A stretch of DNA of 22,756 nt from a virus, in the IMG/VR virus record IMGVR_UViG_3300036846_000525, positions 1-22,756 of that record. The stretch is one strand, 5' to 3'. Position numbers and translations under genes: made by a program. A model generated the notes under the pieces. The model saw nothing but the letters and a program-made list of their open reading frames with translations, ran no database searches and was not told where the DNA came from. This document shows positions 3,501 through 19,151 of the stretch, one piece after another (the stretch's first letter is position 1; each line of letters starts with the position of its first letter).

Positions 3501-6500
3501 TCTTGTTGTAGTGCTTCCAGTCGTAGACCTTGCCCGGCCCGGCCTTCGTCATCACCTGGAGCTTGATCGTCTTGTCACCCGGCTTCGGGGTTTCCATCAC
3601 CTCGTACTCGGCACCCTTACCGTCGGTTTTGATCTTCATGTGGTGACCCTTGGCCAGGTTCATCGCTGGGTGGATACCGGTTCCTGCGGTAGTCCCCGCG
3701 CCGGTTGGTTTTTGCGGCACGTCTTCGTGACCAACGATCCCCACCTTGCCGCCCCACTCCTTGGGAATGTCGTTCGAGAGCCCGGTCTTCTGGTTGGTGA
3801 TCGTCCAGCTATCGCCGTTGTCGGCGGTGACCTTGAACGGCGCGGTCGCGGTCGGCATCGTCACCGAGTCGCCCACGTGCACGTCGCCCCACGTCTTCCA
3901 GCCGCCGGGCGGTTCGGTGCCGGGCTCCGGTGTCGGTGCAGCCGCTCCAGTCTTGACTGCCTGGAACAGGCTGTTGCCCATGTCGATGGTCTGGTTGTCC
4001 TCGCCGTAGGTGTTCACGTAGGCGTCGGTGTACGCCTGTGCCCACTTGGTCGCGGGAGCCCAACTGGCCGGGTACTTGCCGCTCGTCGCGACGTTCGCCT
4101 TGGCCTCGGCGTGAAGGTGCGAGATGGCCGACGGGGTGTGACCAGCGCCCTCCAGGAAGTCGGTGGCGGCTTTCTCGGCGGGGACGATGCCCACCAGGGC
4201 GGGCCCCGGCGCGGTGGGCGGCTCCTCGCCCATCGCGCCTTTGACCGCGAGGTTCAGCGATCCAACGCCCGCGTAGCCCTTCATGTTGATGTGCGCGGCT
4301 TCGTATGCGTCCGGCCAGTCCTTGCCTTGCGCGTGGTGGGTTACCGCGAGTTCGTGAATCTGGTTGATCGTGCCCGGCGCGTACCCCTCCTTCTCCATCC
4401 ACGACTGCGCGGCAGCTTTCACTGCGCTTGGCGGGCCTGGCGGCGTCGGTTCGAGCCCGCCGCGTGAGTTCCAGGAGCCAAGCTCGAACTTGCCGTGCTG
4501 GTCAGCGGGCGCACTCAGGATCGCGCCGTTCTTCAGATTCTTGGCGTCCAGGCCCGCGGGCCCGTGGCCGAGCACGATCCACGGCTCGCCGCCGCCCGCG
4601 AAGAACGTCTGCCCGGACTGCATTTCGTGAACGTCCACGCTCTGCCCTGTGTGCTTGATCGAACCGGGTGGCGGGATGCTTGCCGACAGCGCAACGGAGG
4701 TCAGCTTCTCATCGTTGGGGATCTCCACGGCCGGACCGCCGACCTCGGCCCAGTGGTCGCCATGCTGGATGTCCTTCTTCTTGTAGACGAGCGTGCCGTC
4801 CGCGCGTTGCGCCATCTCGTGGGCGTCGAACATGTGGGCGGGCGTGATCGGCCCCACGCTCTGCGCATCCAGGAACGACGGCAGCGCTGGGATCGGTGTC
4901 GGCTCCGCTGCTGGTGTTGGCTCCGCCTTGTGGTAGCTGGGAGGAACCACGAACGGCTGGAACGTCTGGGTGAGTTCGGCGTCGTCGGCCTTGGCGGTGT
5001 ATCCCGTTGTCGGTGAGCCGGACTGGATCGTCCAGACGTGACCGTGGGTGTTGATCTTGTCGCCCGGCTGCGGAGCCAGCTCCTTCAGGCTGCTCGTGTT
5101 CGGCGTCATCGCGACGGGCTCCGGCGCGGGCGTGGCGTGCTGAGTGCTGAGGTCCGGCGTGGTGCCGTCGGGAATCGGTATGAACCCGGCGCTGGGCTCC
5201 TTGACGTGCAGGTTGCCGTTGTTGACGGTGTAGAGCTGCTGGCCGTCGGTGATGATGGGGTGCTCGCCGGGCTGCTTGACTTTCCAGAGCTGCCCCTTCT
5301 TGTCGGTGAAGTGCTCGCCCTCCGCGAGCGAGCTGACCTTCGGGTAGACCTGTCCGCCGCCGCCCTTGTGCCACTTGTACGCCTGGAGGTCGCCGTGCTC
5401 CACGGCGTCCATCAGGTCGCTCGGGTTGACGGTCACCGGCGGGGGTGGTGTGCTCGGTTCGCCCTTGCCGAGGTATGTGGCGTGGTCGCTGATGTCCTTC
5501 GGAATCCACCCCTTGTTGCCGCCGGGTGCTTCGTACTGCCAGCCCACCGTGCCCTGCTCGGTGGCTTCGCCGACGAGCGTGAGGTCCTGTCCGCCGGGGA
5601 GAGAGAACTTGTCGCCCGGCTCCAGGTCTATCGTGTTCACCTTGTCGCCTGGCTTCCAGGTGGCGTGCGCTGGTGTTGTCGCTACCGCGCCCTTGCCAAC
5701 GAGCGTCGGGTAGCTCTTGTTCTTGGAGACGGGAGTGACCTCGCCGGTGTCGAGGTTCTTCAGGTACGTCTTGGTGCCGACGTGGCCGAGCACCATGTAC
5801 GGCCGTTTGGTGTTCGGGGAGCCGGACACGAGCGTGCCGGGTGCCATCGTGCTGAGCTTGTCCTTGGGCCCGTGCTCGTAGTCGTCGGGGCGGATCAGGC
5901 TGTTCAGCTCGTTGGGGTGGAACTTCTGGACCTTCTGGCTGCCCTCGCCGGGCAGGAACGGCCTGGCGATCACGGTGCCGTCCTTCTGCACGTTCGTGAC
6001 CGTGTGCTTGATCCCGCCGTTCTCGAACGTGTCGCCCTTCTGCGGCGTCAGCTTCGGTAGCTGCGGCCCCTCGCTGAGCGAGGCGGTCGTGACCATGAAC
6101 GGCTTCCCACCCGCGAACGACGCCTCAGCGAACTTGCCGTCGTCGGACACGTTCACCACGTCCGCGATGCGCCCGTCGTCCAGCTTCACCGTGTCGCCAA
6201 CCTCGGGCACGAACGGCGCTGCGGTCCCGGACAGCTTCTGGGTCTTCCACAGCGAATCGACGGTGCCCTCGCTGCCGTCGGACAGCGACTGGAGCGCTAC
6301 CGAACCGCCCGTTTTCTTGGTGATCTCCCAGTGATCGTCGTTGATCGCGATTTTGTCGCCGACGTTCATCTGCCCGACCGGGATCGCTGGGCCGCTCGGC
6401 GCGAGCGACGCCATGTCATGCGACCATGCCTCCTCGGTGGGCGGTGGTGGCAGCGGGAAGAACAGCGGCTTGCCGTCGTCGCCCACGACCACCTTGGCCT

Positions 6501-8592
6501 TGGTGGACTTGTAGCCGCCACCGGCCGGGTTCACGTCGTAGTCGCCGGAGCCGGTGAGCAGCGGCACGTACTGGATTTCGTTCGGCCCGAGCGCGTCGTT
6601 CTGGATCACCAGGTAGCGCGTACCGGCCTGCGACCCGCCCTTCTCAACGACCATGCCCGGCTTCGCTTGCATGTCCGCTGGCCATTCGGAGATTGGTTTC
6701 TGCTCAGCCCACGCCGGGTGTCCCGGATTGGCGTTGACCTTCTCCTCGATGTCTGCCATCACGTTGTCGGGTGGGATGTAGTAGGTCTTGGCCCCTGCTG
6801 CTTTCTTCAGGTGGAAGTTCGCCTCGACCTGGCCAAGATCGACGGTGTACGGGTCGTCCTTGCTGAAGTGCTTCTTCAGCGCACCGGCAATCGAGCCGCC
6901 CTGGGCGTTCGTGTTGAGCTTCCCGCCGAGCCACTTGAACAGCTTGTGCGCCTGGCTGGTGCCGCTGCCGTAGCCGGGGTCCTGGATCTCGTGGTTGAGG
7001 TAGTAGCCCGCCTGCTTACCGACCTTCAGCCGGTCGAGGTTCGCCAGCTCCGACTCGCTGCTGCCCGAGCCCCACCCTTGGCCGAGCAGGCTCTCGAAGA
7101 ACGCGACGTTGCGTACGGGCATCGCGAACACGAACGAGTTCGGTTCGCTCCACGAACCCGTCTTCCACGACGTTGACAGTCCGCTCAGCACGGACGTGTT
7201 GCCCTGGAGCGCTTTCTTGAACACCTCCGCGCCACCGGCCCGGTGGATCACGGTGATGTCAGGCTCGGCGAGGCGGTTGTAGAGGTCCCAGGAGACGAGC
7301 GCGTTGACATCGCTCTCGTACTCCCTGAACCGCTCGTACTTCGCCTGCGCTTTCGCCAGCGCTTCCGGGTTGCCCATCAGTCCCTTGAACACGTTGACGC
7401 CTGAGAGCTGGTTGCCGCGCGTGGCTCCCTTGAGGCTGCTGACCTCGGCGTTGAATGTGCTCACCGCGTCGGGCGGTGCCCCCTTCGTGATTGCCGACAG
7501 CTTCGCTGACCACTGCGACCCGCCTTGCGCTATCGGTGGTGGTTTGTGACCGTTGATCTCCCACGCCCCGAAGCGGTCCATCACCTCGTTGTAGTAGAGC
7601 TGGTCCACCCGACCGAAGTGCGACCACTGCTCGGGGGTAAGTTTGGACAGCGGGCTCGGGTGGATCGTCGGGTCGTGCGTTTCTGGGTGGCTGTCAGCGT
7701 CAACGACCAGCGAGTTCTCGTTGGCGATCACCTGTTTGGTGCCGGACTTGAATCCGCTGCGCAGGATTCGCGGCTCGGCGGGTGTTGCGTTCGGCAGCGC
7801 GTTCTCCACGTCTCCGACCTTCTGGGTGTCGAACACCTGCGTTGTGGCTTTGGCCACGTCACCGGATGCTTCGGCGGCGATGACTCTGCCACCCGCAACC
7901 TGTGTGATTTCCCACTCGTGGCCGTCCTTGTTGAACCGCTGTCCAACGCGCATGAACTGGCCGGAGATGTTCTGGCCGGTGGGGCTGTGTGAGCCGGGTG
8001 GCCAGCGGGGGTGGAGCTTCTCGTTGTAGATCGCCTCGGCGAGCGTCAGCGCTTCATCGAGCACGCGGCCGGTGGGTGTGGCGCGCGGGTCGCCGCCGAG
8101 CAGCGCGTCAAGCTCGGGCCCATCCGGGTCGTGATCGACGGACAGGTCGCCGAAGTCGCCGCTGCCGTTCTCCAGCGGCCCCCAGTGACGTTGGACGTAG
8201 GCATCGGCCTGCGGGTCTTGGACTGGGGTTAGGGCTTCGTCGCGGGTGACCTTGCGGTCGCCGTTCGCGCCGTACCCGGCGAACGCTGCGGCGGTGGATG
8301 GGAACGTGCCGCGTGCGTCGTGCGCGATCCCGGTGGTGGGGTCGTAGGCGACGGTGTGCTCCAGCGTCCCGGTGTTCGGATTTCCGGTGTATAGGGCCTT
8401 GACTTTCAGGGCCGGGTAGCGGCGCGCTAGCGCTGCGGCGAGCTGGGTGGACCCATCCCCCAGGTAGGTGTCGCCAATGGGCTCCAGGGAGCTGTCAGCG
8501 CGTCCTGGGCACGTTGGCGCGGCCCCCCTCGACAGTGCTTGAGCGAAGCTGAACCGCTGCCCCGGTGCAGCGGCTTCGATCAGGGCGCTCAC
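541..8592 (-). CDS. Giant 2683-aa multidomain protein: papain-like N-terminus, ART-like domain, SH3-like array, C-terminal kinase-like domain
   Basis: GTG start overlaps the stop of the 52-aa gene (GTGA), with GAGGAG 11 bases upstream. In order: residues ~40-95 resemble a papain/transglutaminase-type fold (GDGSTQLAAALARRYP, then LEHTVAYDP and HDARG), with Ser where a Cys is expected. Residues ~440-520 carry an ADP-ribosyltransferase-like R-S-E pattern (IHRAGG with R451, LSTSW 472-476, ESE 513-515). From ~740 to ~2320 about 16 SH3-like modules of the type xxGDxhxxxGxxWxI occur. Four helical repeats lie near 1390-1450, 1472-1548, 2194-2268 and 2354-2420. Residues 2444-2683 form a HipA/PI3-kinase-like domain with K2478, E2490, N2553/D2555, D2562/N2563 and D2575. 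Proline-rich linkers separate modules. Placement after MuF suggests a head-associated, possibly ejected protein; this is inference. Domain names are by eye. Confidence 0.75.
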   Translation of the reverse strand: MSALIEAAAPGQRFSFAQALSRGAAPTCPGRADSSLEPIGDTYLGDGSTQLAAALARRYPALKVKALYTGNPNTGTLEHTVAYDPTTGIAHDARGTFPSTAAAFAGYGANGDRKVTRDEALTPVQDPQADAYVQRHWGPLENGSGDFGDLSVDHDPDGPELDALLGGDPRATPTGRVLDEALTLAEAIYNEKLHPRWPPGSHSPTGQNISGQFMRVGQRFNKDGHEWEITQVAGGRVIAAEASGDVAKATTQVFDTQKVGDVENALPNATPAEPRILRSGFKSGTKQVIANENSLVVDADSHPETHDPTIHPSPLSKLTPEQWSHFGRVDQLYYNEVMDRFGAWEINGHKPPPIAQGGSQWSAKLSAITKGAPPDAVSTFNAEVSSLKGATRGNQLSGVNVFKGLMGNPEALAKAQAKYERFREYESDVNALVSWDLYNRLAEPDITVIHRAGGAEVFKKALQGNTSVLSGLSTSWKTGSWSEPNSFVFAMPVRNVAFFESLLGQGWGSGSSESELANLDRLKVGKQAGYYLNHEIQDPGYGSGTSQAHKLFKWLGGKLNTNAQGGSIAGALKKHFSKDDPYTVDLGQVEANFHLKKAAGAKTYYIPPDNVMADIEEKVNANPGHPAWAEQKPISEWPADMQAKPGMVVEKGGSQAGTRYLVIQNDALGPNEIQYVPLLTGSGDYDVNPAGGGYKSTKAKVVVGDDGKPLFFPLPPPPTEEAWSHDMASLAPSGPAIPVGQMNVGDKIAINDDHWEITKKTGGSVALQSLSDGSEGTVDSLWKTQKLSGTAAPFVPEVGDTVKLDDGRIADVVNVSDDGKFAEASFAGGKPFMVTTASLSEGPQLPKLTPQKGDTFENGGIKHTVTNVQKDGTVIARPFLPGEGSQKVQKFHPNELNSLIRPDDYEHGPKDKLSTMAPGTLVSGSPNTKRPYMVLGHVGTKTYLKNLDTGEVTPVSKNKSYPTLVGKGAVATTPAHATWKPGDKVNTIDLEPGDKFSLPGGQDLTLVGEATEQGTVGWQYEAPGGNKGWIPKDISDHATYLGKGEPSTPPPPVTVNPSDLMDAVEHGDLQAYKWHKGGGGQVYPKVSSLAEGEHFTDKKGQLWKVKQPGEHPIITDGQQLYTVNNGNLHVKEPSAGFIPIPDGTTPDLSTQHATPAPEPVAMTPNTSSLKELAPQPGDKINTHGHVWTIQSGSPTTGYTAKADDAELTQTFQPFVVPPSYHKAEPTPAAEPTPIPALPSFLDAQSVGPITPAHMFDAHEMAQRADGTLVYKKKDIQHGDHWAEVGGPAVEIPNDEKLTSVALSASIPPPGSIKHTGQSVDVHEMQSGQTFFAGGGEPWIVLGHGPAGLDAKNLKNGAILSAPADQHGKFELGSWNSRGGLEPTPPGPPSAVKAAAQSWMEKEGYAPGTINQIHELAVTHHAQGKDWPDAYEAAHINMKGYAGVGSLNLAVKGAMGEEPPTAPGPALVGIVPAEKAATDFLEGAGHTPSAISHLHAEAKANVATSGKYPASWAPATKWAQAYTDAYVNTYGEDNQTIDMGNSLFQAVKTGAAAPTPEPGTEPPGGWKTWGDVHVGDSVTMPTATAPFKVTADNGDSWTITNQKTGLSNDIPKEWGGKVGIVGHEDVPQKPTGAGTTAGTGIHPAMNLAKGHHMKIKTDGKGAEYEVMETPKPGDKTIKLQVMTKAGPGKVYDWKHYNKNILITKEAPAPTAAEMTPNDAGKSLEDLGLQKGDLYHDGGNTFKVTNVTKYNNIETENVTTGGSLFVHKGFVPESYIKTSPAPQGDTAQNDTNGWPLAHGDPVTVYGTPGFTYQGPDPEAPGKALIGDPNDVGGPPLQIAVTDLEKGVPEPPTPPPSAPIPAHGPQTLGDLNVGDKYKIGPHEWEVMQKDDIYTTVKNQDGDTIPMPHDTPFSTAPEITYKAPPTTGGSASGQLGGMPTVHDMPIDPYLWHKGGGGQTYAPINKLAPGEQFSDKSGNKYIVVKHNVKKLEDVTASTTVQGPSGGTFDVPTHFANAKGKTVPTRVYKLASTAPVPEYIEPQPEQPEVPGHLTAAQTDNLLTNVSTQGGDHHTNGWLASYANSGGYHVTSPGGVTHNDLSHDQAYGWMVHGAEPAAEPAPAPTPTTWDKLRVGDLINSGSGGSPFKVTADHGTHWEITSAKDGSSADIPKNSTLQVEKTGHESMKGPPFPLPVNDAHYKAQRIADQWLKQHKMPAEDIAAIHQKVADFLPGQDQWGPGEAYAQAVSGHTQFKTPGDYQGNPHELTKQIDQALQVGKLVAPHELGKGDVFSNPEGGHFEVTAKAGEATHFKKLSGAGATAGVLHDDSPVKYTLVSKGEQPILPSAEASAIPAPANDAHFTATNAADKWMLDNGVPSKTANWVHAEAAKQKQQHPNWGWGESYAAALPPEAMDDPHNLAALKDLLDQKEPPAEPVVEKLPPAAPKPGLGEMPDYTGTKLTPTGSAGGTTGAQLATDPTGKQWLIKSYGGNEDRVATELLANSVYRSMGLNAADAGTLQQGGKTKLAYPLVGGNTQPWSGTDQAKMKALGQGVMTDALVGNWDFAGLEDDNVLWNGDKPTRIDQGGTFMYRAQGKPKEFGPVPVEVKSLLTGGGQGVKGVSVSEPEMRQQAAQIAATLTPEKIDQLVDAAPFANQKMKDEIRKNLKARVAWMAQFADGKHSEMLNGVKLSA

Positions 8593-8747
8593 GGCTTGTC
8601 TGGCTCCTCGACGTTGTCGAGGTCTATCGGCTTGAGCTTGTTGGCGTCCACCTTCTTACCGTGGACGGTGAAGATGCCGTCCTGGTACTTGGGCATCGGA
8701 CCCGCGAGATACTCGGCGGCGTCAGGTGGGATGCGGTTCTCGGTCAC
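8589..8747 (-). CDS. 52-aa linker gene between MuF fusion and giant gene
   Basis: A 52-codon frame exactly fills the gap between the MuF fusion gene and the giant gene. Its GTG (8745-8747) overlaps the MuF stop as GTGA, and its TGA (8589-8591) overlaps the GTG of the giant gene in the same way. An AAGG sits eight bases before the start. The product begins MTENRIPPDAAEYLAG and contains a small basic segment (TVHGKKVDANKLKP) followed by an acidic C-terminus. Double four-base overlaps indicate translational coupling of all three genes and suggest fixed stoichiometry. No domain is recognised. It could be a chaperone or scaffold-like partner of one of its large neighbours, but nothing in the sequence shows that. 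Confidence 0.75.
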   Translation of the reverse strand: MTENRIPPDAAEYLAGPMPKYQDGIFTVHGKKVDANKLKPIDLDNVEEPDKP

Positions 8748-11700
8748 GCGGTCGCCTTCGCGACGTGCTCGTCGTACTGGGCCTTGTCGAGCACCTTCAT
8801 CGACTTGCCCGCTGGCTTGTCGGCGATCAGCGTCGGCTTGCCGCGCTTGACGGTCGAGTACACCTTGACGTGCACGTCGGGCATCTTGGACACGTCCTCG
8901 GTGTAGCTCTGCGCGACCGTCCGGTGCTGCTCGCGCAGCAGCGACTCGGCGACCTTGCGGCCGGTGCGCTCAGCGCGGGCCCGCTCGCGGGTGACGGCCT
9001 CGGACACGGGCACGTGCGCGTACCGCGCTTCAACGTCGTATCCAGCGTCGGCGGCGGCTTTCAGCTTGCGGCCGAACTTGCCGATGTGCGAGTTGCCGGT
9101 CCCGTCCACGATGATCGGGTAGTTGCCTTCCATCGCGAGCGCAGTCATCAGTTTCGCGAGGTCGCTCGACTCCTCGTGGGTCGCGGCGGCAGCGATGTCC
9201 TGTCGGCCCATCTTGCGCAGCGCGTCGTACTCGGGGAGCTGCGCCTTGATGTCGTCGGGGTTGATGTACACCGCGCCGTCGGGGATGTCGAGGTTGAACT
9301 TCGCGTCACTGGACTGTCCGGCCAGCCCGGACTTGCCGGATGCCGCACCCCCGGCGGTGAAGATCGCCTTGGCTTTGCCGTCGGTGACGGGCTTGGCGTT
9401 CGCGAAGAAGTGGTCCACGATCTCCTGGTGCAGTAGCTGCCGGGCGGCGGTGTATTTGCCGTCCACCTGGTGGAGCTTCTGGGTGTCGAGCGCCTGGCCA
9501 CCCGCGAGCGCCTGGTAGGCGTCGTCGTCGCGCTTGTCGCCGAGCGATCCGATGATCGCGTCGGTGGGGGCGGGAGGCGCGGCCGTCAGCGCCGTGAACC
9601 CGTGCGGTGGCTTGGGGCCGAGCTTCCCGATCCACTTGCCGCCCCGGCCGCGCGGGTGCAGCGCCTCGGTGTACTCGGCTTCCTCCAGGCGCTTGAGGAT
9701 GCTGAACGGGACGGTGTAGCCCTTGCCCGAGTCGAGCTTGACGTTGGCCATCCCCTTTCCCGCGTCGCCGGTCACGGTCGCCTTGTTCCCGTTCACCTCC
9801 ACGCGGTCGCCCTTCTTGAAGAACGGCACCTGCGCGCCCGGCGGTTTGAAGCTCTGTTGCGCCGGTGGCTTGTACGCACTCGGGAGGTACGGCGGCTTGT
9901 GGTACGGCAGCAGGATCGCTTCGAGCGTCTGCTTGCCGTCCGGGCCGGTCGTGAGCCCCTGTACTTGCATGCGCTGGTTGCGTGGCAGCAGCATGTCCGG
10001 CTCGCCCTTCTGCGCGTCGTCCAGGTGCATCATCCGCGCGCCGCCGGGGACCAGCAGCCGGACGCGGGTGTTGCCGGTCGCGTCGTTGATGTTGGTGTGC
10101 GCCCGGATGTAGGACTTCATCGAGAACGTCTTGCCGACCATGTCCTTCGTCGGCGCAGCGTCAGCGCCGAGGTACACGTGGGTGTCTACCGGGGCGTTGG
10201 TGGCTTCGAGCACCGCGTCGAGCCGCTTGACGCCTTGGCGTTCCGGGTCGGTGAAGTCCTTGCCGCTGCGGAGGTGGTCGTCCAGGGTGCGGCCCGCTGC
10301 GGTGGCGTACTTCTCCAGCGCCTGGTGCTCCTCGGGGTACACCTCCAGCTTGTCCTGCGCGTCGGTGAACTGGGTGCGCGCCTCGGCCCCGGTCGCCGGT
10401 CGCGGCAGGCTCTCCTCGCCGGTGGCGAACTTGCGCATCCAGCCCACCCGTGCCTTCAGTGCGCTGGCGGTCAGCTTGCGGTCCGCCTCGCTGGGGTATG
10501 ACGCGGCCTTCGTCAGCTCCTCGATCTTCGCGTTGGTGAGGGTGCGGGCGATGTGAGCGGCCTGCTGGCGCAGCGCGTCCTCGTTCTGAGGGATCGTGCC
10601 TGCCGCCTGGCCCCGGTAGCGCATCGTCCACACCTCCTCCGGCGTGTCACCGAAGGCGTGCAGCTCGCCGCCCTTGCGTCCGTACCCGAGGGTGCTGCCC
10701 ATGTTCGTCCGGATCGGCGTCTTGTCGTCTGTCCAGCGGACGTTGGCTCCACGGTCGCCGAGGAAGTCGCGGTTCGCGAGCAGCGCGTCGGCCATGTACC
10801 CGTTGCCGAGCGCCTCGTTCGGGGCGTCGATGTTCTTCGTCTTGCCGCCCTTGACGGTCTTGAACGCGAGCGCGGAGCCGGGCTGCTCGGGCGGGAAGGT
10901 GTCCTTGAACTTGCCGGTCGGGATCGGCTGGTCGAGCACGGCCTTGAGGATCTCCTGGTCGCGCTGCTTGTTGAGCATCTTCGCGGCCTCGTCCGGCGTG
11001 ACGGTTTTGATCGCCTGCGTCTCGTCGCTCGGTGTTGCCTCGCCGCCCGTGCGGACACCCACGTAGAAGCGGCTGGTGCCTGTGTCGCCCTTGAAGTCGC
11101 CGACGACCCCGGTGATGTGCGCGTGCAGCCCCGTCTCCTCCCACAGCTCCTTGTGGGCGTTCTGCTGCGGCGTGAGGTTCGGTTCGACGCCGCCCTTCGG
11201 GAACGTGTGGATGTACCCGCCGTAGTGGTTGCGCGGCTCGATCAGCGTCAACCTGCCGTCAGGCTCGCGGAGGATGATCCCGGTCGAGATGCGGGCGTGC
11301 GGCTCCGCGTCGATGGGCGGTTCGTTGGGAAGGTCCTCGGCGCGCTGGGCGAAGTCGGGTTCCGGTTCGGTTTGGACGCGACCCATCGTTGGGGTGTCGA
11401 TCCCGAGCGTGCGGTAGACCGAGTTGGACAGCAGCTCGCTCGCGACCCGTGTGCGGTCGCCGCTGTGGTTCTTCACGATGTAATCGTCACCGAGCCCGCG
11501 GGCCTTGATCGAGTCGCTGCCGAACGCCGGGGGGAGCTGGAGCTTCAGCGGGATGTGCCCGAAGTCGGGGATTGCCTTCTGCTTGGCGGGCGCGGGCTTG
11601 TCGCCGCCGAGCACCGTGTCGGCGATCTTCTTGGGCCCGCCGACGACGGTGCTGCCGGGCGACAGGTCCGGCATGAACGTCTCTTTCGGGACGTACGGTT

Positions 11701-12682
11701 TGGGGGCGACGTGCGGTGGCTTCGGCGCGTCGTGGCCCTTGGCGAAGTCGAACAGCGACCCGCCCGGCTTGTCGATCCATTCGCCGCCTCGGCCGCGCGG
11801 GTGCAGGAAGTCCTTCCACTTGACCTCCTGTAGCTCGCGGATCGCCTTGGCGATGCTTGGGCGCACGTCCTGCCCGTCGAGGAACGCTTCGATCTCACCG
11901 GGGTCGGCGACAGCTCGGATCGCTTCTTCGAGCGCGAGCGCGGCCTTGGCCATGTTCAGCGCGTCCCCGGCCTGTGGTGGCGGTGGGTCACTGGGACCGA
12001 GCGGCACCAGCGAGCAGAGGCAGCCGGGGTGCAGCGGCGGTTGGATCGCGTCGAGCACCGACCACGGCCAGCTCTTGCCCGCGAGCGCGAGGCACCCGAG
12101 CGTGTGGTTCTTGGTCGGCCCGAGCATCCAGCGTGCGCCCGCTGGGCTTCTGGCCTTCACCTGGGCGTTCTGGACGTGCGCCTTCGCGCGCTCCATCATC
12201 ACTTTGGTACGTAAGGCGGCGTAGTGCTGCTCCAGCTTCAGGATCGCCTGGACCTTCTGCTGCTGCTGCTCCAGGGTGGGAAGCTCCCCGGCGGTTTGCA
12301 GCGCGGCGGTGACGCGCTTGATCGCCTTCTGTTGGAACAGGCGCTCCAGCTTCATCTCGTTCTCGACAGCGGCCCTAATCGTGCTGGGGTCGGCGTCGGG
12401 GAACAGGCGCGTCAGTTCCTTCGTGAGCCAGTCGGTGCTGTCCGTGGTGTGCCAGCGCAGCAGCTTGCGCAGAACCTTCAGGATCACCGCGATCTTGACG
12501 CCGTGGACGAACGCCTCGGCGGGCACCTTGACGACGCCAACGGCTGCCCGAGCGGGCAGCGTGACCGCGACGGCCGGAGCAACAATGGCGACCTTGGCCG
12601 CTTGACCGGCGGCTGCGGCTTTCAACAGTTGCGTGACCGGCTGCGGCTGCTGGGGTTGCTGCTGCTGGTCAGGGACTGCCAC
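8744..12682 (-). CDS. MuF-type head protein fused to kinase-like, Nudix, ADP-ribosyltransferase-like, SH3-like and zeta-kinase domains (1312 aa)
   Basis: GTG start; TAG lies in frame four codons upstream, so no longer start exists. Residues ~100-228 carry the MuF signature (WMLGPTKNHTLGC, then PPLHPGCLC at 215-223), known from phage Mu gpF-like head morphogenesis proteins and MuF polymorphic toxins. Residues ~392-436 and ~600-756 are two halves of a kinase-like fold paralogous to the C-terminus of the giant protein. A Nudix domain (~461-583, PRNHYGGYIHTFPKGG and KELWEETGL) sits between them. Residues ~775-925 resemble an ADP-ribosyltransferase (FSMKSYI; EPD in place of ExE). An SH3-like module lies at ~955-1000. 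Residues ~1075-1290 match zeta toxin kinases: Walker A GGAASGKSG 1111-1119, THEESSDLA, IVDGTGNSH. LHPR linkers occur at 293 and 1008. Likely packaged and possibly delivered to the host; this is inference. Confidence 0.85.
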   Translation of the reverse strand: MAVPDQQQQPQQPQPVTQLLKAAAAGQAAKVAIVAPAVAVTLPARAAVGVVKVPAEAFVHGVKIAVILKVLRKLLRWHTTDSTDWLTKELTRLFPDADPSTIRAAVENEMKLERLFQQKAIKRVTAALQTAGELPTLEQQQQKVQAILKLEQHYAALRTKVMMERAKAHVQNAQVKARSPAGARWMLGPTKNHTLGCLALAGKSWPWSVLDAIQPPLHPGCLCSLVPLGPSDPPPPQAGDALNMAKAALALEEAIRAVADPGEIEAFLDGQDVRPSIAKAIRELQEVKWKDFLHPRGRGGEWIDKPGGSLFDFAKGHDAPKPPHVAPKPYVPKETFMPDLSPGSTVVGGPKKIADTVLGGDKPAPAKQKAIPDFGHIPLKLQLPPAFGSDSIKARGLGDDYIVKNHSGDRTRVASELLSNSVYRTLGIDTPTMGRVQTEPEPDFAQRAEDLPNEPPIDAEPHARISTGIILREPDGRLTLIEPRNHYGGYIHTFPKGGVEPNLTPQQNAHKELWEETGLHAHITGVVGDFKGDTGTSRFYVGVRTGGEATPSDETQAIKTVTPDEAAKMLNKQRDQEILKAVLDQPIPTGKFKDTFPPEQPGSALAFKTVKGGKTKNIDAPNEALGNGYMADALLANRDFLGDRGANVRWTDDKTPIRTNMGSTLGYGRKGGELHAFGDTPEEVWTMRYRGQAAGTIPQNEDALRQQAAHIARTLTNAKIEELTKAASYPSEADRKLTASALKARVGWMRKFATGEESLPRPATGAEARTQFTDAQDKLEVYPEEHQALEKYATAAGRTLDDHLRSGKDFTDPERQGVKRLDAVLEATNAPVDTHVYLGADAAPTKDMVGKTFSMKSYIRAHTNINDATGNTRVRLLVPGGARMMHLDDAQKGEPDMLLPRNQRMQVQGLTTGPDGKQTLEAILLPYHKPPYLPSAYKPPAQQSFKPPGAQVPFFKKGDRVEVNGNKATVTGDAGKGMANVKLDSGKGYTVPFSILKRLEEAEYTEALHPRGRGGKWIGKLGPKPPHGFTALTAAPPAPTDAIIGSLGDKRDDDAYQALAGGQALDTQKLHQVDGKYTAARQLLHQEIVDHFFANAKPVTDGKAKAIFTAGGAASGKSGLAGQSSDAKFNLDIPDGAVYINPDDIKAQLPEYDALRKMGRQDIAAAATHEESSDLAKLMTALAMEGNYPIIVDGTGNSHIGKFGRKLKAAADAGYDVEARYAHVPVSEAVTRERARAERTGRKVAESLLREQHRTVAQSYTEDVSKMPDVHVKVYSTVKRGKPTLIADKPAGKSMKVLDKAQYDEHVAKATA

Positions 12683-12709
12683 GCCTACAGGCTAAGTGCA
12701 GGCGTGGCA
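12677..12709 (-). promoter_or_regulatory. Perfect 10-bp inverted repeat over the MuF start codon
   Basis: TGCCACGCCT (12677-12686) and AGGCGTGGCA (12700-12709) are perfect reverse complements separated by 13 bases. In the minus-strand mRNA the 3' arm contains the GTG start codon of the MuF fusion gene. A hairpin here would hide the start codon, and no good Shine-Dalgarno sequence is seen nearby. It could be a translational control element or a protein-binding DNA palindrome. It has no T tract, so it is not a typical intrinsic terminator. Confidence 0.6.
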
Positions 12710-12741
12710 GTGCGCCCATGTGGGAATGCGCAGTCAGGCGA

Positions 12742-12759
12742 GGGCAGGGCAGGCTAGAC
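12742..12759 (-). repeat. Cassette-flank repeat, left copy
   Basis: Reading the minus strand, GTCTAGCCTGCCCTGCCC closely matches two plus-strand copies right of the cassette (14469-14487 and 14605-14622), sharing the core CTAG(C/T)CTGCCC. Left and right copies are in inverted orientation around the two-gene plus-strand cassette. Confidence 0.6.
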
Positions 12760-12932
12760 GCGCGGGGAGCTGGGCGGAGGAGGGAAGGGGTGGGATGTCG
12801 GGTCGGGATGTGGAGCGGTCAGGTCTTGAGCGGACTCGCCGGGTCGGCTGGTCAGGCGGGGAGAGGGCCGGGATGAATAGGCACGAGTAGGTTAGTCAGG
12901 CGTGGCCGGGGCTGGTCGGATTCGATGCGAAC

Positions 12933-12948
12933 CGGCTTGGACTGTCGG
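12933..12948 (-). repeat. Cassette-flank repeat, second family, left copy
   Basis: On the minus strand this reads CCGACAGTCCAAGCCG and matches CCGACAATCCAAGTCG at 14418-14433 on the plus strand at 14 of 16 positions. Like the other flank repeat it lies in inverted orientation relative to the cassette. Confidence 0.5.
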
Positions 12949-13074
12949 AAAGGCTGGGGCCGAACCGGTCCGGGTTGGCGCGGGTTGTCGGGGAGAGCCG
13001 AAAGGAGACGGAACGGCCTGAGTAGGTAAGTCGAGATCGTGTATCCGGAAGGTCCCGGAGTGCTGCGCACGCTA

Positions 13075-13089
13075 GCACGTATCGTGGGC
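13075..13089. promoter_or_regulatory. Operator-like palindrome upstream of the cassette promoter
   Basis: GCACGTATCGTGGGC resembles the palindrome in the recurrent minus-strand promoters (such as GCACGTCGTGTGC), with a different centre. Unlike those, it lies upstream of the cassette's presumed -35/-10 rather than inside the spacer. Read on the minus strand it is followed by TAGCGT, so a divergent promoter toward MuF is conceivable. The minus-strand -35 is poor, and no start-associated box follows. Confidence 0.3.
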
Positions 13090-13097
13090 ACCACGGC

Positions 13098-13152
13098 TTT
13101 GGTCGTTATAAAGGAGGTGCTAGGCTTCCGCGCCATTCATCCGACCGAGGAG
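13098..13152 (+). promoter_or_regulatory. Putative promoter and start-associated box of the plus-strand cassette
   Basis: A -10-like TAGGCT (13121-13126) lies 16-17 bases after a TTGGTC-like -35 (about 13098-13104). TATAAA at 13108 is an alternative -10. CCGACCGAGGAG (13141-13152), the same box found before minus-strand genes, ends six bases before the GTG at 13159 and fixes that start. The GCAC...GTGC palindrome of the other copies is missing from the spacer here, so regulation may differ. Confidence 0.5.
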
Positions 13153-13158
13153 GCATAA

Positions 13159-13872
13159 GTGCCCGAGTCGATCTTTGGGAAGTACGAACCCAAGGGCTAC
13201 CCCTACGTTTTCCGTGGGCACATCATCGTTGAGCTGCTGGCTGGTGGAACTCCGACCAACCCGGACGTGGCAGCCGCGTGGATCAAAGCGAAGGGCTACA
13301 AGGACCTGAAGGACGAGCTGATCGCAGAGGAAGTCTCCAAGATCATGGCCGAGCGCGGTGTCACCGAGGACGACGCCATCGAGCAGGTGTCTGAGAATCG
13401 TCACCTGTCGGGGTTCCGCCGCGACGAGCATGGGTTGTACATCGAGGGCCGTCAGCTCAAAGCGATGCTGAAGGAGGCTGCGAGCGTCGCGGCCGATGTT
13501 GGCAAACTTCAGATCCGGGGGTTGGGAGCGAACCCGAAGAAGGGGATCAAGTCGTTCGTTGCGGAGCACATCTTTGTGCGCGAGCAGCGGCTGCACCTCG
13601 GAGCGGACAAGCCGAGCGACGTGATCCAGTCCTTCATTCACACGTTCAGGGGCAGCGGCATCCAGTACACCGAGGTACTGGAGCAGGCCGAGTTCGACTT
13701 CACTGTCGAAACAGACCGCAAGTTCGATGACGAGTTCTGGGCGATGCTGTGGCTCACCGGCCAGCGTCAAGGCATTGGTGCTACCCGCTCGCAGGGGTTC
13801 GGTGCGTTTACGATCACGGAGTGGGAACCGCTTGGTGAGGTCAAGCCGGTCCGGCGTAAGAGGGCTGCATGA
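13159..13872 (+). CDS. Stand-alone RAMP/Cas7-like RNA-binding protein (candidate)
   Basis: GTG start chosen because CCGACCGAGGAG ends six bases upstream. The 237-aa product has features of the RAMP superfamily (the ferredoxin-like fold of Cas7, Csm3, Cmr4, Csf2 and Cas6). A hydrophobic first strand reads YVFRGHIIVELLAGG (16-30). A segment YIEGRQLKAMLKEAA (94-108) resembles the substrate-loop/helix region where Cas7-type proteins have G-x-x-x-K-G-x-x-R. A C-terminal glycine-rich loop GIGATRSQGFGAF (205-217) fits GhGxxxxxGhGxh exactly. Strand pattern around EFDFTVETD (178-186) and WAMLWLTG also fits. The tail is basic (RRKRAA). It is co-translated with the next gene (ATGA overlap). GC looks lower (35 of 60 in 13201-13260, versus 42 of 60 in 9001-9060). 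No CRISPR or Cas10 gene is present. Role unknown: host-CRISPR interference or phage RNA binding are inferences. Confidence 0.65.
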   Translation: MPESIFGKYEPKGYPYVFRGHIIVELLAGGTPTNPDVAAAWIKAKGYKDLKDELIAEEVSKIMAERGVTEDDAIEQVSENRHLSGFRRDEHGLYIEGRQLKAMLKEAASVAADVGKLQIRGLGANPKKGIKSFVAEHIFVREQRLHLGADKPSDVIQSFIHTFRGSGIQYTEVLEQAEFDFTVETDRKFDDEFWAMLWLTGQRQGIGATRSQGFGAFTITEWEPLGEVKPVRRKRAA

Positions 13873-14387
13873 CTATCACCTCCGACCTGATCACCGAACT
13901 GGTTGAAACGAAGGTTGAGGAGATCCTGGCCTCCGAGGGCGACGTGCTGCTCTCGGAGGCTGCGGCGGATGTTGTCGCAGATGCGCGGCAGACCGACGCG
14001 GATGCGCTGATCGACTGGTTCTCGGATCACGCGATCAATCTGATCCGAACGCAGCTTCAGTCACGGCTTGCGATGGCACGTCGCGGCACTCGCATCGGCG
14101 TGTTCCAGGAACGCGAGGTGAAGCCGTTCGAGCGCCGGTACGCCACCGCAGACAACGTGTGGAAGCGTATTGGCGAAATGCGCCGCCCAGATTGGCGATT
14201 TTTGGTCGAACAACGCTCGAAGCTCGCTACCGCCAGCCTGTTCGACATCGCGCTCGCGAAGCGGCTGATCAAGCGCTTGCCGGACGACACAACACCGACC
14301 CATGAAGTGGTGAGCGAAGCCGAGCTACGTTCACTTGAGGATCAGGCGCAGGTGGCTGCCGAACGATCCGTCGCCAAGTTTGCTTGA
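13869..14387 (+). CDS. Helical 172-aa partner of the RAMP-like protein
   Basis: The ATG (13869-13871) overlaps the RAMP-like stop by four bases (ATGA), so the two are almost certainly coupled and probably work together. The product looks mostly helical: an acidic N-terminal third (residues 1-45, TKVEEILASEGDVLLSEAAADV), a basic centre (LQSRLAMARRGTRIGVF; FERRYATADNVWKRIGEMRR) and a charged C-terminal helix (SEAELRSLEDQAQVAAERS). There is no signal peptide, membrane segment or cysteine cluster. I recognise no family. Small helical subunits accompany Cas7-type proteins in Cascade-like complexes, and the pairing recalls that, but no sequence motif supports it. GC in 14161-14220 is 33 of 60, again below the structural genes. 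A hairpin follows seven bases after the stop. Confidence 0.75.
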   Translation: MTITSDLITELVETKVEEILASEGDVLLSEAAADVVADARQTDADALIDWFSDHAINLIRTQLQSRLAMARRGTRIGVFQEREVKPFERRYATADNVWKRIGEMRRPDWRFLVEQRSKLATASLFDIALAKRLIKRLPDDTTPTHEVVSEAELRSLEDQAQVAAERSVAKFA

Positions 14388-14393
14388 TCCACC

Positions 14394-14417
14394 GTGCCCG
14401 GAGCCGTTCTCCGGCAC
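14394..14417 (+). terminator. Hairpin after the cassette, candidate terminator
   Basis: GTGCCCGGAG and CTCCGGCAC can pair over nine base pairs with one bulged C and a five-base loop (CCGTT), beginning seven bases after the stop of the 172-aa gene. No T tract follows; instead the RNA becomes very C-rich. It may act as an RNA-end-stabilising hairpin or with Rho-dependent termination. It would keep cassette transcripts out of the oppositely oriented portal gene. Confidence 0.5.
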
Positions 14418-14433
14418 CCGACAATCCAAGTCG
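14418..14433 (+). repeat. Cassette-flank repeat, second family, right copy
   Basis: CCGACAATCCAAGTCG matches the inverted left-flank copy at 12933-12948 at 14 of 16 positions. Confidence 0.5.
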
Positions 14434-14446
14434 TCCCAGACCAGAC

Positions 14447-14487
14447 CCGACTACCCCATCCTCCCCCGGCCTAGCCTGCCCATGCCC
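14447..14487 (+). repeat. ~40-base flank repeat, copy A
   Basis: Begins CCGACTACCCCA and ends in GCCTAGCCTGCCCATGCCC (14469-14487). The same succession recurs at 14583-14622 with a few substitutions and equal internal spacing. A further degenerate unit, GACTAGTCCGCCCAGTCC, follows directly at 14488-14505. Confidence 0.65.
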
Positions 14488-14582
14488 GACTAGTCCGCCC
14501 AGTCCGTGCCCGCGCTCCCCGACCCATCGCGACAACCCCCGTCAGGCCAGGCCCTCCCTCGTCTGCCCCCGCCATGCCAACT

Positions 14583-14622
14583 CCGACTACCCCAGTCTTG
14601 CCCGGCCTAGTCTGCCCAGCCC
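14583..14622 (+). repeat. ~40-base flank repeat, copy B
   Basis: Begins CCGACTACCCCA and ends in GCCTAGTCTGCCCAGCCC (14605-14622), matching copy A at 14447-14487. The inverted left-flank unit at 12742-12759 matches its second half. Confidence 0.65.
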
Positions 14623-14738
14623 GCACCTGACCACGCGCGTCATTGCACCCCTCGCCGCCCCGCGCCCAGCCTGACATCCCCAGTCCCTCCAGCACACCGC
14701 TGCGCCACCTCACCCCGGCCCGACTTCTCCCAACGCTG

Positions 14739-16832
14739 CTAGTGCTTGGGGCTGCTGCCGTTTCCGTTCGCGGTGGCAGCTTCGAGCATCTCGTCCACCA
14801 GATCGCCGATCTCCGCGTCCCAGAGATTCATCAGCCGCGCCATGCGGTTCTCCTCGGACTCGTCGGCCACCGCTGCCTGGTACATCGGCTGCTGCCCCTG
14901 GTTGTCCTGGTAGCTGGACGAGAACCCTTGCGCACCATAGGGATTTTGTTCACCGTCTGGCCCTTGGCCTGCTGACGGCTGTTCGCCGGAGACGTACGAG
15001 CTGCCGCCGAACGGATTCGGCCCCTCCGGGATCAGCGGCGGCGCTCCACCTGGCTGCGACTGGCCAGGACCGGCTGCCTGGGCCATTGACGCGGCGACCA
15101 TCGGATCGACATATCCCTCTGGAAGAATCCTCTCGACGGCGGCGGCGGGGTCGGCGAGTTCCAGCCCCTGGCCGAGCGCGACACTGAGCAGCGTGCGGCT
15201 GAGTTCGAGGTTCGTGTTGTTCGGATCGAACGTGCGGGCGAGGTTCGCGATGCTGGTGATCAGGTCGGCCATCGAGCGTTTCATCGGGCTTGGCATCGAG
15301 AACTCGTAGCTCAGGTCCCGCTCGGTCTGCTTCTCGTCCTGCGTCTGGCCGTGGTAAGCCTCTGTGAGCTGCTCGGAGCCGGTTCCGCCCATCGGGTCCG
15401 TCATCGACAGTGGAGGCTCCTGCTGGGCGGGAGCGGGCGGCGTAAGGCCCTCTCCGCCGGGTACCTGCTCCCCCGGCTTCTTGGACTTGAGCGCGAGGCG
15501 TTCCTCGGGCGTCAGCTCGGTCGGGAGACGGCCGGAGTCCACTGCCCGTTCGATCACGCGGTCGGTGAACGTGCGGAACAGCCCCTCGAACAGTTCCTGG
15601 AAGGATTCGACCTTCTTGATGACCGGCAGCTCCAGGGCGCTGGCAGTCGCGAGGTTCGCGTTGGACTGGTCGCCGAGGTAGTGCTGCGGCCATGTCGCTG
15701 ACGCGATCTGCGAGCGGATCATCTGCGCGTCCTGCGCCGCCTGCGGGGCTTGGGTGGAGACGGAGAACGGCTCGGTCGTGACGTTCTCGTTCTCGTTCAG
15801 GATCGACGCGGGGCGCGGGCCGGGCGCGATGGTTCCGGCGCTCGGGTCGTCCATCGACGTGGCCGCGAGGGTGGAGGCGCGCGACAGGGCCTTCGCGGCG
15901 ATGTTCGCAACCTGAGTCGAGGAGCCCTTGACGGTCCGGCGCATGATGAACGCGGCAGCGGCCTGGGTCATGTCCACCCGTGCGGCCATGAAGTCGTTCA
16001 GCGCCGCCATCCACTTCACGATCCGGCGCATCGCAGGGATGCCGAACACCTGCTCGCTGCCCCGGTTGATCGCGATGTGGTAGACGAGCCCGTCGCCGAG
16101 CTTCTCCGACGGGCAGGTCGGGTCGTCGGTGTCGAGCTTGCCGGTCGCGGGATCGGTCGCGGCGAGCGCCTGGTAATACTGGACGACGGGTCTGCCGGAC
16201 GCCTGCATGTTCGCGGTCGCTTTGAGGCTCACCCGGTCCATCTGGTAGTCCCACTCGTAGTCGCGGCGGCGGGCGACGTAGTACAGGACGCGGAGGCGGT
16301 TGCTGGTGTCGCGTACCGCGTCCTCCACGAGGTCGTGGTTGAGGATGCCGAGCTTGACCTTGCCGTCGTTGCCGTCCTCGAAGAACAGGATGAACAGGTT
16401 GGACTGGAGCACGAGGTCGGTGCAGAGCGCGACCTGGGCCGGGAACGTCGTCAGGCACGCCTGGTTGTCCGGGTCGCTCCAGGCTTCGTCCACGACCTCC
16501 TGCACCTTGCTGTCGGCGCACTTGGGTTGCGGGACGCCGCGTCCGAAGATGAACTGGCACGACAGGTCCACGTTGGCTCCAGCGACGGGGTCTTGAATCC
16601 AGACCATCCGGGCTTGCGCGGCCATCTTGCGGCGCTCGATGGCCTTGACCTCCTGGGGCTGCCCGCCGATCTGGTCGAGGACGTAGTAGCCGAGCAGGTC
16701 GAGTTCCTTCTGCATCGCGCGGCGCTCTACGTCGCTGGCCTCCAGGAGTTGCAGGCGGTCCTGGTCGATCACCGTCTTGCCGGTGCGCGTCTCGACTACT
16801 TCTTGCAGCCGTCCGATCAGCCCGTCAGCCAT
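14739..16832 (-). CDS. Phage portal protein
   Basis: The 697-aa product is a portal: it forms the dodecameric ring at the capsid vertex through which DNA is packaged and ejected and to which the tail joins. Supporting features are the hydrophobic-charged stretch VALCTDLVLQSNLFILFFED (135-152), the typical RGSEQVFGIPAMRRIVKWM (257-274) followed by helices with AARVDMTQAAAAFIM, and the conserved late segment GDQSNANLATASALELPV (387-404) leading into a helical crown. From ~435 the chain becomes rich in Pro, Gly and Gln, longer than usual for portals, and ends with an acidic helix (EIGDLVDEMLEAA). The ATG overlaps the preceding 63-aa gene by eight bases. Normally a MuF-type gene follows immediately; here the inverted cassette lies between. 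Confidence 0.92.
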   Translation of the reverse strand: MADGLIGRLQEVVETRTGKTVIDQDRLQLLEASDVERRAMQKELDLLGYYVLDQIGGQPQEVKAIERRKMAAQARMVWIQDPVAGANVDLSCQFIFGRGVPQPKCADSKVQEVVDEAWSDPDNQACLTTFPAQVALCTDLVLQSNLFILFFEDGNDGKVKLGILNHDLVEDAVRDTSNRLRVLYYVARRRDYEWDYQMDRVSLKATANMQASGRPVVQYYQALAATDPATGKLDTDDPTCPSEKLGDGLVYHIAINRGSEQVFGIPAMRRIVKWMAALNDFMAARVDMTQAAAAFIMRRTVKGSSTQVANIAAKALSRASTLAATSMDDPSAGTIAPGPRPASILNENENVTTEPFSVSTQAPQAAQDAQMIRSQIASATWPQHYLGDQSNANLATASALELPVIKKVESFQELFEGLFRTFTDRVIERAVDSGRLPTELTPEERLALKSKKPGEQVPGGEGLTPPAPAQQEPPLSMTDPMGGTGSEQLTEAYHGQTQDEKQTERDLSYEFSMPSPMKRSMADLITSIANLARTFDPNNTNLELSRTLLSVALGQGLELADPAAAVERILPEGYVDPMVAASMAQAAGPGQSQPGGAPPLIPEGPNPFGGSSYVSGEQPSAGQGPDGEQNPYGAQGFSSSYQDNQGQQPMYQAAVADESEENRMARLMNLWDAEIGDLVDEMLEAATANGNGSSPKH

Positions 16833-17656: not shown

Positions 17657-18141
17657 CAGTGGAACTCTACGAGCCCATCCTCCGCTGCCAACTCGAACGC
17701 CCGCCACCAGGTGACGTACTCCTCGTAGTAGCTCCCCGGCGCGTTATCGTCGCGCGCCTGCTTGTCGTGCGCAGCGAACGCCTCGGCGAGACGCTTCGCC
17801 GGGCCGGGTCCGATGACTCCCTCGTTGTCGGCGAAGTTGATCAGCTCGTAGAACGGCTTGTCCTGGTATGTCCGCGAGTTCCCCCAGACGATGGCTGGTG
17901 CGACTCCGAGCATGGTGCTGCTCAGCCAGTGGCGGAACGCGCCGTAGCCGCTGTAGGAGCCCGCTGGGAAGTCGAGGCGTTCCTCGTAGGAGTAGTACCC
18001 GTTCGTGCGTCCGTCCGCGCGGTCGAGCCAGTCGCGGTTGGTGCGGCCGATCCACTCGTAGCCCCGGTCGGTCATCTCGTCGTACTCGCCGTCGGCGGAG
18101 ATGAACTTGACCTTGCTCAGCGCTGTCACATCCAAACCCAT
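17656..18141 (-). CDS. 161-aa MGLDV-type conserved hypothetical protein
   Basis: ATG at 18139-18141 overlaps the stop of the Spo11-like gene (TGATG). The product starts MGLDVTALSKVKFI, has FPAGSYSGYGAFRHWLS near residue 60 and many aromatic residues through the C-terminus. Small proteins with an MGLD start and a GSYSGY-type centre are, to my recollection, widespread as unannotated proteins in phages and bacteria; their function is not known to me. It is soluble and acidic, with no obvious catalytic motif. Coupling to the topoisomerase VI A-like gene suggests related timing but not necessarily function. Confidence 0.75.
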   Translation of the reverse strand: MGLDVTALSKVKFISADGEYDEMTDRGYEWIGRTNRDWLDRADGRTNGYYSYEERLDFPAGSYSGYGAFRHWLSSTMLGVAPAIVWGNSRTYQDKPFYELINFADNEGVIGPGPAKRLAEAFAAHDKQARDDNAPGSYYEEYVTWWRAFELAAEDGLVEFH

Positions 18142-19151
18142 CAGTCACTCCCTCCGTTCAGGCTGTCCACGATTTCCTCCCACTGCTGGCTGGCTTGGCG
18201 TAGGAGCCGCTGTCCGTCACGTTCGCGCTCCTGGGCAGCGTCCCATGCCGGGTCTTCGATCATGCCCTCCACGTGCGTCCTGACGAGCCCAGAGAGCACG
18301 TCTGGCGGGAGCGCGTCCAACTCCCAGCTTTCGTAGCCGTACTCGCGGATGTAACCCTCGGCGCGTGAGTCGCTCAGCTTCGCCGGGTTCGGCGGCGGTT
18401 GGTACTGGTTGATCTGGTCCATGTTCAGCGCGATCCGGCGGACCTCGAAGCGGTCGAGCGCGTCATTGACCCACTGCTTGACGGTGGAGTCCTGGTTCGC
18501 CTTGCTGAGTTCGTCCCAGTTCGCGGTCCTGTCCATCTGCCAGTGCGCGTAGTCGGTGGCGATGAACAGCCGCAGGCGATCCTCGATGTCGCGGGTCATG
18601 TCGATCCCGGACGGATCATGGTCGCCGAGGTGCAGGATCGTGATGCGCTTGCCTGCCTGCACCTGCGTGCCGATCCGTTGCGCGGCGCTCCACATTTCGC
18701 TTTGGCTGGTGTAGCCCCGGCAGGAGAAGTACGGCACGTCGAGTTCGGTCGAGACACCTTCGATCACGCCAACGAGCGCGTCCTTCTCGATCCACACCTC
18801 GACGTAGCTGTTCTGCTGCTCCCACAGGTCCACCTTGTAGGAGCGGGCTGTCGCGTCGATGATGTCGGCCGGGTCGTCCCAGTGCTGGAGCATCCGCACG
18901 TTGCGGGTGCGGTCCACGATGCTGTCCCAGTCGATGTACCCGGACAGCCGGGCGTCGTTGATGATCGACCCGAGCCGCTTGTAGCTGCGCTCGACGTTCG
19001 GGATCAAGTCGCGTGAAACGAACTGGTAGTAGAGCTGTCGGAGTGTCAGGTCGTAGCCCGCCGCTGCGTACTCGTCCAGGATCTGGTTGGCCTGAACGAT
19101 GACAGCGAGGGTGTCGGCACTGAAGCGTTTGGATTCGTAGGCGATCTTCAT
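18141..19151 (-). CDS. Spo11/topoisomerase VI subunit A-like TOPRIM protein (Mini-A type)
   Basis: The 336-aa product has the two halves expected of a type IIB topoisomerase A subunit. LRQLYYQFVSRD (37-48) corresponds to the R-x-x-YY motif that carries the catalytic tyrosine in Spo11/TopoVI-A (Y41 or Y42 here). A TOPRIM domain follows, with VWIEKDAL (E122) and HLGDHDPSG (D177, D179) as metal ligands. Such enzymes cut DNA through a tyrosyl-phosphodiester link. No B-subunit (GHKL ATPase) gene is in the window. Stand-alone A-like proteins from mobile elements have been called Mini-A, and this one fits that description. ATG start with CCGACCGAGGAG six bases upstream and its own promoter (copy 4). 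Possible roles in replication, recombination or host DNA breakage are inference. C-terminus is charged and helical. Confidence 0.75.
   Translation of the reverse strand: MKIAYESKRFSADTLAVIVQANQILDEYAAAGYDLTLRQLYYQFVSRDLIPNVERSYKRLGSIINDARLSGYIDWDSIVDRTRNVRMLQHWDDPADIIDATARSYKVDLWEQQNSYVEVWIEKDALVGVIEGVSTELDVPYFSCRGYTSQSEMWSAAQRIGTQVQAGKRITILHLGDHDPSGIDMTRDIEDRLRLFIATDYAHWQMDRTANWDELSKANQDSTVKQWVNDALDRFEVRRIALNMDQINQYQPPPNPAKLSDSRAEGYIREYGYESWELDALPPDVLSGLVRTHVEGMIEDPAWDAAQERERDGQRLLRQASQQWEEIVDSLNGGSD

Follow-up and report, generated by a model that had tools for sequence, protein, structure and literature searches.

Why a phage should encode a CRISPR-like protein among its virion structural genes, with no CRISPR-Cas locus nearby, is the question raised by a 22,756 bp stretch of viral DNA (IMG/VR record IMGVR_UViG_3300036846_000525, positions 1–22,756; referred to here as the window). 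The original prediction, made from the sequence alone, was that the gene at 13159-13872 encodes a lone RAMP/Cas7-like protein that could mimic a Cascade subunit, cap guide RNAs as an anti-CRISPR, or bind phage RNA in an unrelated system. We find that the protein is as described, although the gene is not alone, and that together with a partner gene and two flanking arrays of five-base repeats it most likely forms a guided system of the VIPR type, in which short coded RNAs would lead the protein to genes of competing phages.

A Cas7-fold protein and its partner gene

The open reading frame at 13159-13872 (plus strand) encodes a 237-residue protein, and has a GTG start codon preceded at a distance of 5 nt by a strong Shine-Dalgarno sequence (GAGGAGG, 13147-13153, plus strand). 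Residues 205-217 (GIGATRSQGFGAF) are an exact match to the RAMP glycine-rich loop GhGxxxxxGhGxh, and G205, G207, A208, R210 and G215 are invariant in 43 homologues. A second conserved block, GLYIEGRQLKAMLKEA, resembles the YIPGSSLKGxLR helix of Csm3 and Cmr4. Pfam and single-sequence PDB searches gave nothing significant, but PADLOC profiles for Csm4 (E=3e-4) and Csm3 (E=0.0016, residues 88-160) match the single sequence. An AlphaFold model built on an alignment of 42 sequences (pLDDT 85.6, pTM 0.80) has the ferredoxin-like core, and a Foldseek search of the PDB returns Cas7-type subunits of type VII (E=1.1e-7), type III (Csm3, E=1.8e-6) and Cas7-11 complexes as the listed top matches; neither a fold lacking this core nor a best match to an unrelated enzyme family, either of which had been named in advance as counting against the assignment, was observed. 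The predicted protein shares with Cas7, Csm3 and Cmr4 of CRISPR types III and VII the RAMP fold, a YIxGxxLKxxLKE-like helix motif and the glycine loop, but has a helical insertion (residues 35-80) after strand 1. The predicted fold also matches (E=5e-11) BFVD A0A8S5R426, a phage RAMP annotated as a 'Cas system-associated RAMP superfamily protein' of Siphoviridae sp. ctcMb1.

The surrounding genes are structural, with a portal gene at 14739-16832 (PHROG, E=4e-26). To the left of the module, a 1312-residue protein (8744-12682, minus strand) in the structural block has Nudix (E=1e-14) and zeta-toxin/kinase-like (E=2e-21) domains and a weak ADP-ribosyltransferase match (E=0.018), and is a multi-enzyme head protein that is perhaps injected with the DNA. 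A 2683-residue protein (541-8592, minus strand) has many recurring similar segments (GDxxxxxGxxWxV-like) and no family match, and is a giant repetitive structural protein. No Cas10, Cas5, Cas6 or adaptation genes were found, with no PADLOC match among eight other window proteins scanned, although genes beyond this 22.8-kb record cannot be excluded; no CRISPR array was found in the window and there are no regular long direct repeats in 12600-14800.

The RAMP gene is nonetheless not alone. The gene at 13869-14387 (plus strand), which encodes a 172-residue protein, overlaps the RAMP stop codon by 4 nt (ATGA), and members of its family are present in 83 of 108 loci with the RAMP and in none of the loci without it; it is the only widely conserved neighbour. 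The family is predicted to be all-helical (pLDDT 89, modelled on the relative at locus L022; L numbers denote the individual loci compared) and a fold search of the PDB gave no match. Relatives of the RAMP were not found in a plasmid collection, and among 50,697 phage records only Microcystis phage Mae-JY09 carries the family convincingly.

Noncoding arrays of pentamers

Next to the RAMP genes lie roughly 300-1500 nt of noncoding DNA, about 50% C and 17% G, with 8-40 copies of CGAC and almost no GTCG. Alignment of 735 CGAC sites revealed a C every 5 nt with a single 3-nt step at each CGA, such that the tracts can be described as CGA followed by n x CNNNN. In the window there are two such arrays, one at 14419-14643 (plus strand) within the intergenic interval 14388-14738, and one at 12741-13033 on the minus strand within 12683-13158. 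Of 42 arrays, 37 exceed all of 300 shuffles for 5-nt periodic C, and neither window array was equalled in 300 shuffles (z=6.3 and z=7.0, respectively). Entropy by pentamer position is 0, 1.99, 1.98, 1.82 and 1.57 bits; position 1 is C, positions 2 and 3 are maximally variable, positions 4 and 5 are C-rich, and G is avoided at position 5. The arrays have no excess of predicted folding (z -0.46 and +1.11), no structured 3' tail was seen, and an Rfam search gave no hit. Between close relatives the arrays are the fastest-evolving segment.

Unsupervised scanning finds arrays in 92 of 105 loci with this RAMP and in 4 of 150 without it, compared to 2 in 3.3 Mb of block-shuffled DNA. The remaining 13 loci with the RAMP, representing fewer distinct phages, have no array in the stretch examined. 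Of the four exceptions, L132 is another part of the contig of L102, which has the RAMP but no array near it, and L142 carries the same terminase stretch as L132; the L132 arrays (102-776 and 2395-2703) have the same grammar and lie within a few kb of a terminase gene, showing that arrays can lie far from the RAMP gene. Relatives of the locus include prophage loci of Streptacidiphilus (L052) and Actinomadura (L051). In the Streptacidiphilus record a run of N at about 9500-9783 lies inside the array and is flanked by a 27-nt exact duplicate, suggesting an assembly gap caused by the repeats. In the window and in L002 the order is array (minus strand), RAMP, partner, array (plus strand), whereas most others are partner, array, RAMP on one strand, and L005 and L050 are partner, RAMP, array.

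Relationship to VIPR

An April 2026 preprint describes VIPR, which comprises a phage RAMP (Vipr), an accessory gene, and RNAs of YNNGG repeats whose NN pairs read DNA while skipping one base, silencing rival phages (PMC13142463). Like the type II VIPRs of Escherichia phage SUSP1 and a P. fulva prophage, the window locus has a single-RRM RAMP and one small accessory gene flanked on both sides by noncoding pentanucleotide arrays with a variable NN after a pyrimidine; the one-base skip, its placement at the codon wobble position, and the targeting of other phages and other VIPRs are shared at the level of the family. The SUSP1 locus was located as a control. Profile comparison with the experimentally studied type II Vipr proteins shows that the two RAMP families are only remotely similar (E=6.4e-5, probability 64%, over 145 collinear columns, without a tree that includes CRISPR RAMPs), and the accessory family does not match vap1 (E=0.54), one of the VIPR accessory families vap1-6. 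The repeat is CNNNY rather than YNNGG, retaining the Y-NN register but not the GG, and scanning for the CNNNN grammar finds no arrays in SUSP1-type loci, as expected for a different consensus. The arrays also differ in having CGA punctuation and many short units of 6-9 pentamers, in place of single 9-16-repeat RNAs with an invariant structured tail. The preprint mentions seven types, related consensus sequences, staggered arrays and other architectures for other types, and this family may be one of them; it fits the main-text definition of RAMP, accessory and pentanucleotide code. Relatives of the SUSP1 Vipr, with adjacent small genes and annotated as hypothetical proteins, are also present in the actinophages LittleE of Mycobacterium (L121, 1986-3148) and two Gordonia phages (L122 and L124), and in LittleE the gene is inverted between the tape measure and minor tail genes, a placement between structural genes like that in the window.

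Decoding of array units

A search for targets assuming a 5-nt pitch, ignoring only the C, gave no clear excess. With NN at positions 2 and 3 and one skipped base, there were 40 exact seven-pentamer matches in about 1 Mb of related phage DNA versus 3.6 (z=21), but this was inflated because one unit matched many homologous vipr genes. We therefore counted units, and the enrichment is modest: at eight pentamers 3/186 units match versus 0.65 in shuffles (1 of 100 shuffles), and at seven pentamers 13/329 versus 6.9 (2 of 100). Skips of 0 and 2 show nothing, and a skip of 3 is weak (6 of 100 at seven pentamers), such that the one-base skip gives the clearest enrichment.

Only two units have convincing full-length targets. 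A unit in L010 matches over 9/9 pentamers the antisense of the terminase Walker A codons (VRGPHGLGK) of L027, with 17/18 bases matching in L039. A unit in L006 matches over 8/8 pentamers the vipr genes of other phages, but its own gene at only 14/16 bases. In both instances the skipped base is the codon wobble position and the match ends at the CGA boundaries. When the 18 fixed bases of the L010 pattern were scanned over 2.9 million viral contigs there were at least 120 hits, and all 120 examined encode VRGPHGLGK in the predicted frame. An 18-base pattern from the window gave 0 hits, and no target was found for the window's own units. A 16-base pattern from a further unit (L081), which looked promising in eight contigs, gave 13 scattered hits and is attributed to chance; these put the chance level at about one hit for 18 bases. 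Because a conserved motif multiplies hits once it is matched, the L010 result is one independent event and not 120, and our rough estimate, itself an inference, is that some unit among all those tested would meet so widespread a site by chance with a probability of about 1% or less.

Interpretation

We propose, with good confidence, that 12741-14643 is a VIPR-type RNA-guided DNA-recognition module of an actinophage-like virus. The computations establish a Cas7-fold protein, a conserved partner gene, noncoding arrays of CGA and CNNNN pentamers with maximal entropy at positions 2 and 3, and natural matches of relatives' units that follow the NN and one-base-skip code. That the arrays are transcribed, that each CGA-delimited unit (typically 33-48 nt) is processed or read as one guide, that one RAMP protomer sits on each pentamer and holds the C, that the NN pairs read three bases of double-stranded DNA per protomer, and that binding represses rival phage genes (terminase and competing vipr genes) by blocking transcription, as shown for SUSP1, are all inferred. 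In this view the position of the skipped base at the wobble would not let targets escape by synonymous changes, and the partner probably helps DNA binding or repression. The observation of a RAMP protein in a phage structural region is thus confirmed other than in its being lone. The earlier interpretation is only partly supported: a genuine Cas7/RAMP-fold, probably RNA-binding protein without a CRISPR-Cas locus is correct, mimicry of a Cascade subunit or capping of host crRNAs is not supported, and binding of phage RNA in an unrelated system was the closest of the three suggestions.

VIPR is proposed as the ancestor of CRISPR effectors. If the proposal is correct, this family shows that the pentanucleotide code survives with a different fixed letter and without the tail, isolating the essential rule of Y, NN and a one-base skip. 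It offers a large natural set of multiplexed guides in actinophage-like viruses, suggests that phages aim at conserved protein motifs through their wobble-invariant codon positions, and, with dozens of loci with readable guides, makes it directly testable who attacks whom among phages. A more tentative possibility is that this is a distinct VIPR type with its own grammar of CNNNY pentamers punctuated by CGA, dozens of short guides per locus, a new all-helical accessory, and guides aimed at near-universal essential motifs such as the terminase P-loop codons, so that one guide hits a great many competing phages.

Alternative explanations

An alternative that seems unlikely is that the arrays are a non-guide RNA (or ssDNA) scaffold, coated every 5 nt by the Cas7-like protein to form a filament that sequesters or protects something, with neutral variable bases. 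The C periodicity, the G-poor sequence without predicted special structure, and the rapid evolution of the arrays are in accord with this, but the full-length coded matches to the terminase Walker A codons and rival vipr genes, in the wobble frame and ending at unit boundaries, argue against it, as does the clearest enrichment being with the one-base skip. It is very unlikely that the module regulates the phage's own replication or recombination; in several relatives it lies in regions with RecT-like, exonuclease and clamp-like genes (assigned by eye from sequence), but the window copy is among structural genes, neighbours other than the partner are not conserved, and the two convincing targets lie in other phages. 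A role as a substitute for RecT is rejected as RecT-like genes co-occur with it. An anti-CRISPR or Cascade mimic, a stray Cas7 that caps or competes for host crRNAs, is compatible with the fold, the phage location and the lack of a cas operon but is equally improbable, because the arrays and accessory are conserved with the RAMP across distant phages and the periodicity is 5 nt rather than the 6 nt of Class 1 crRNA complexes, in which disruption is at every sixth position (PMC13142463).

Finally, we note that this short record also encodes a topoisomerase-like protein (18141-19151, minus strand; PHROG 6247, E=1e-113).
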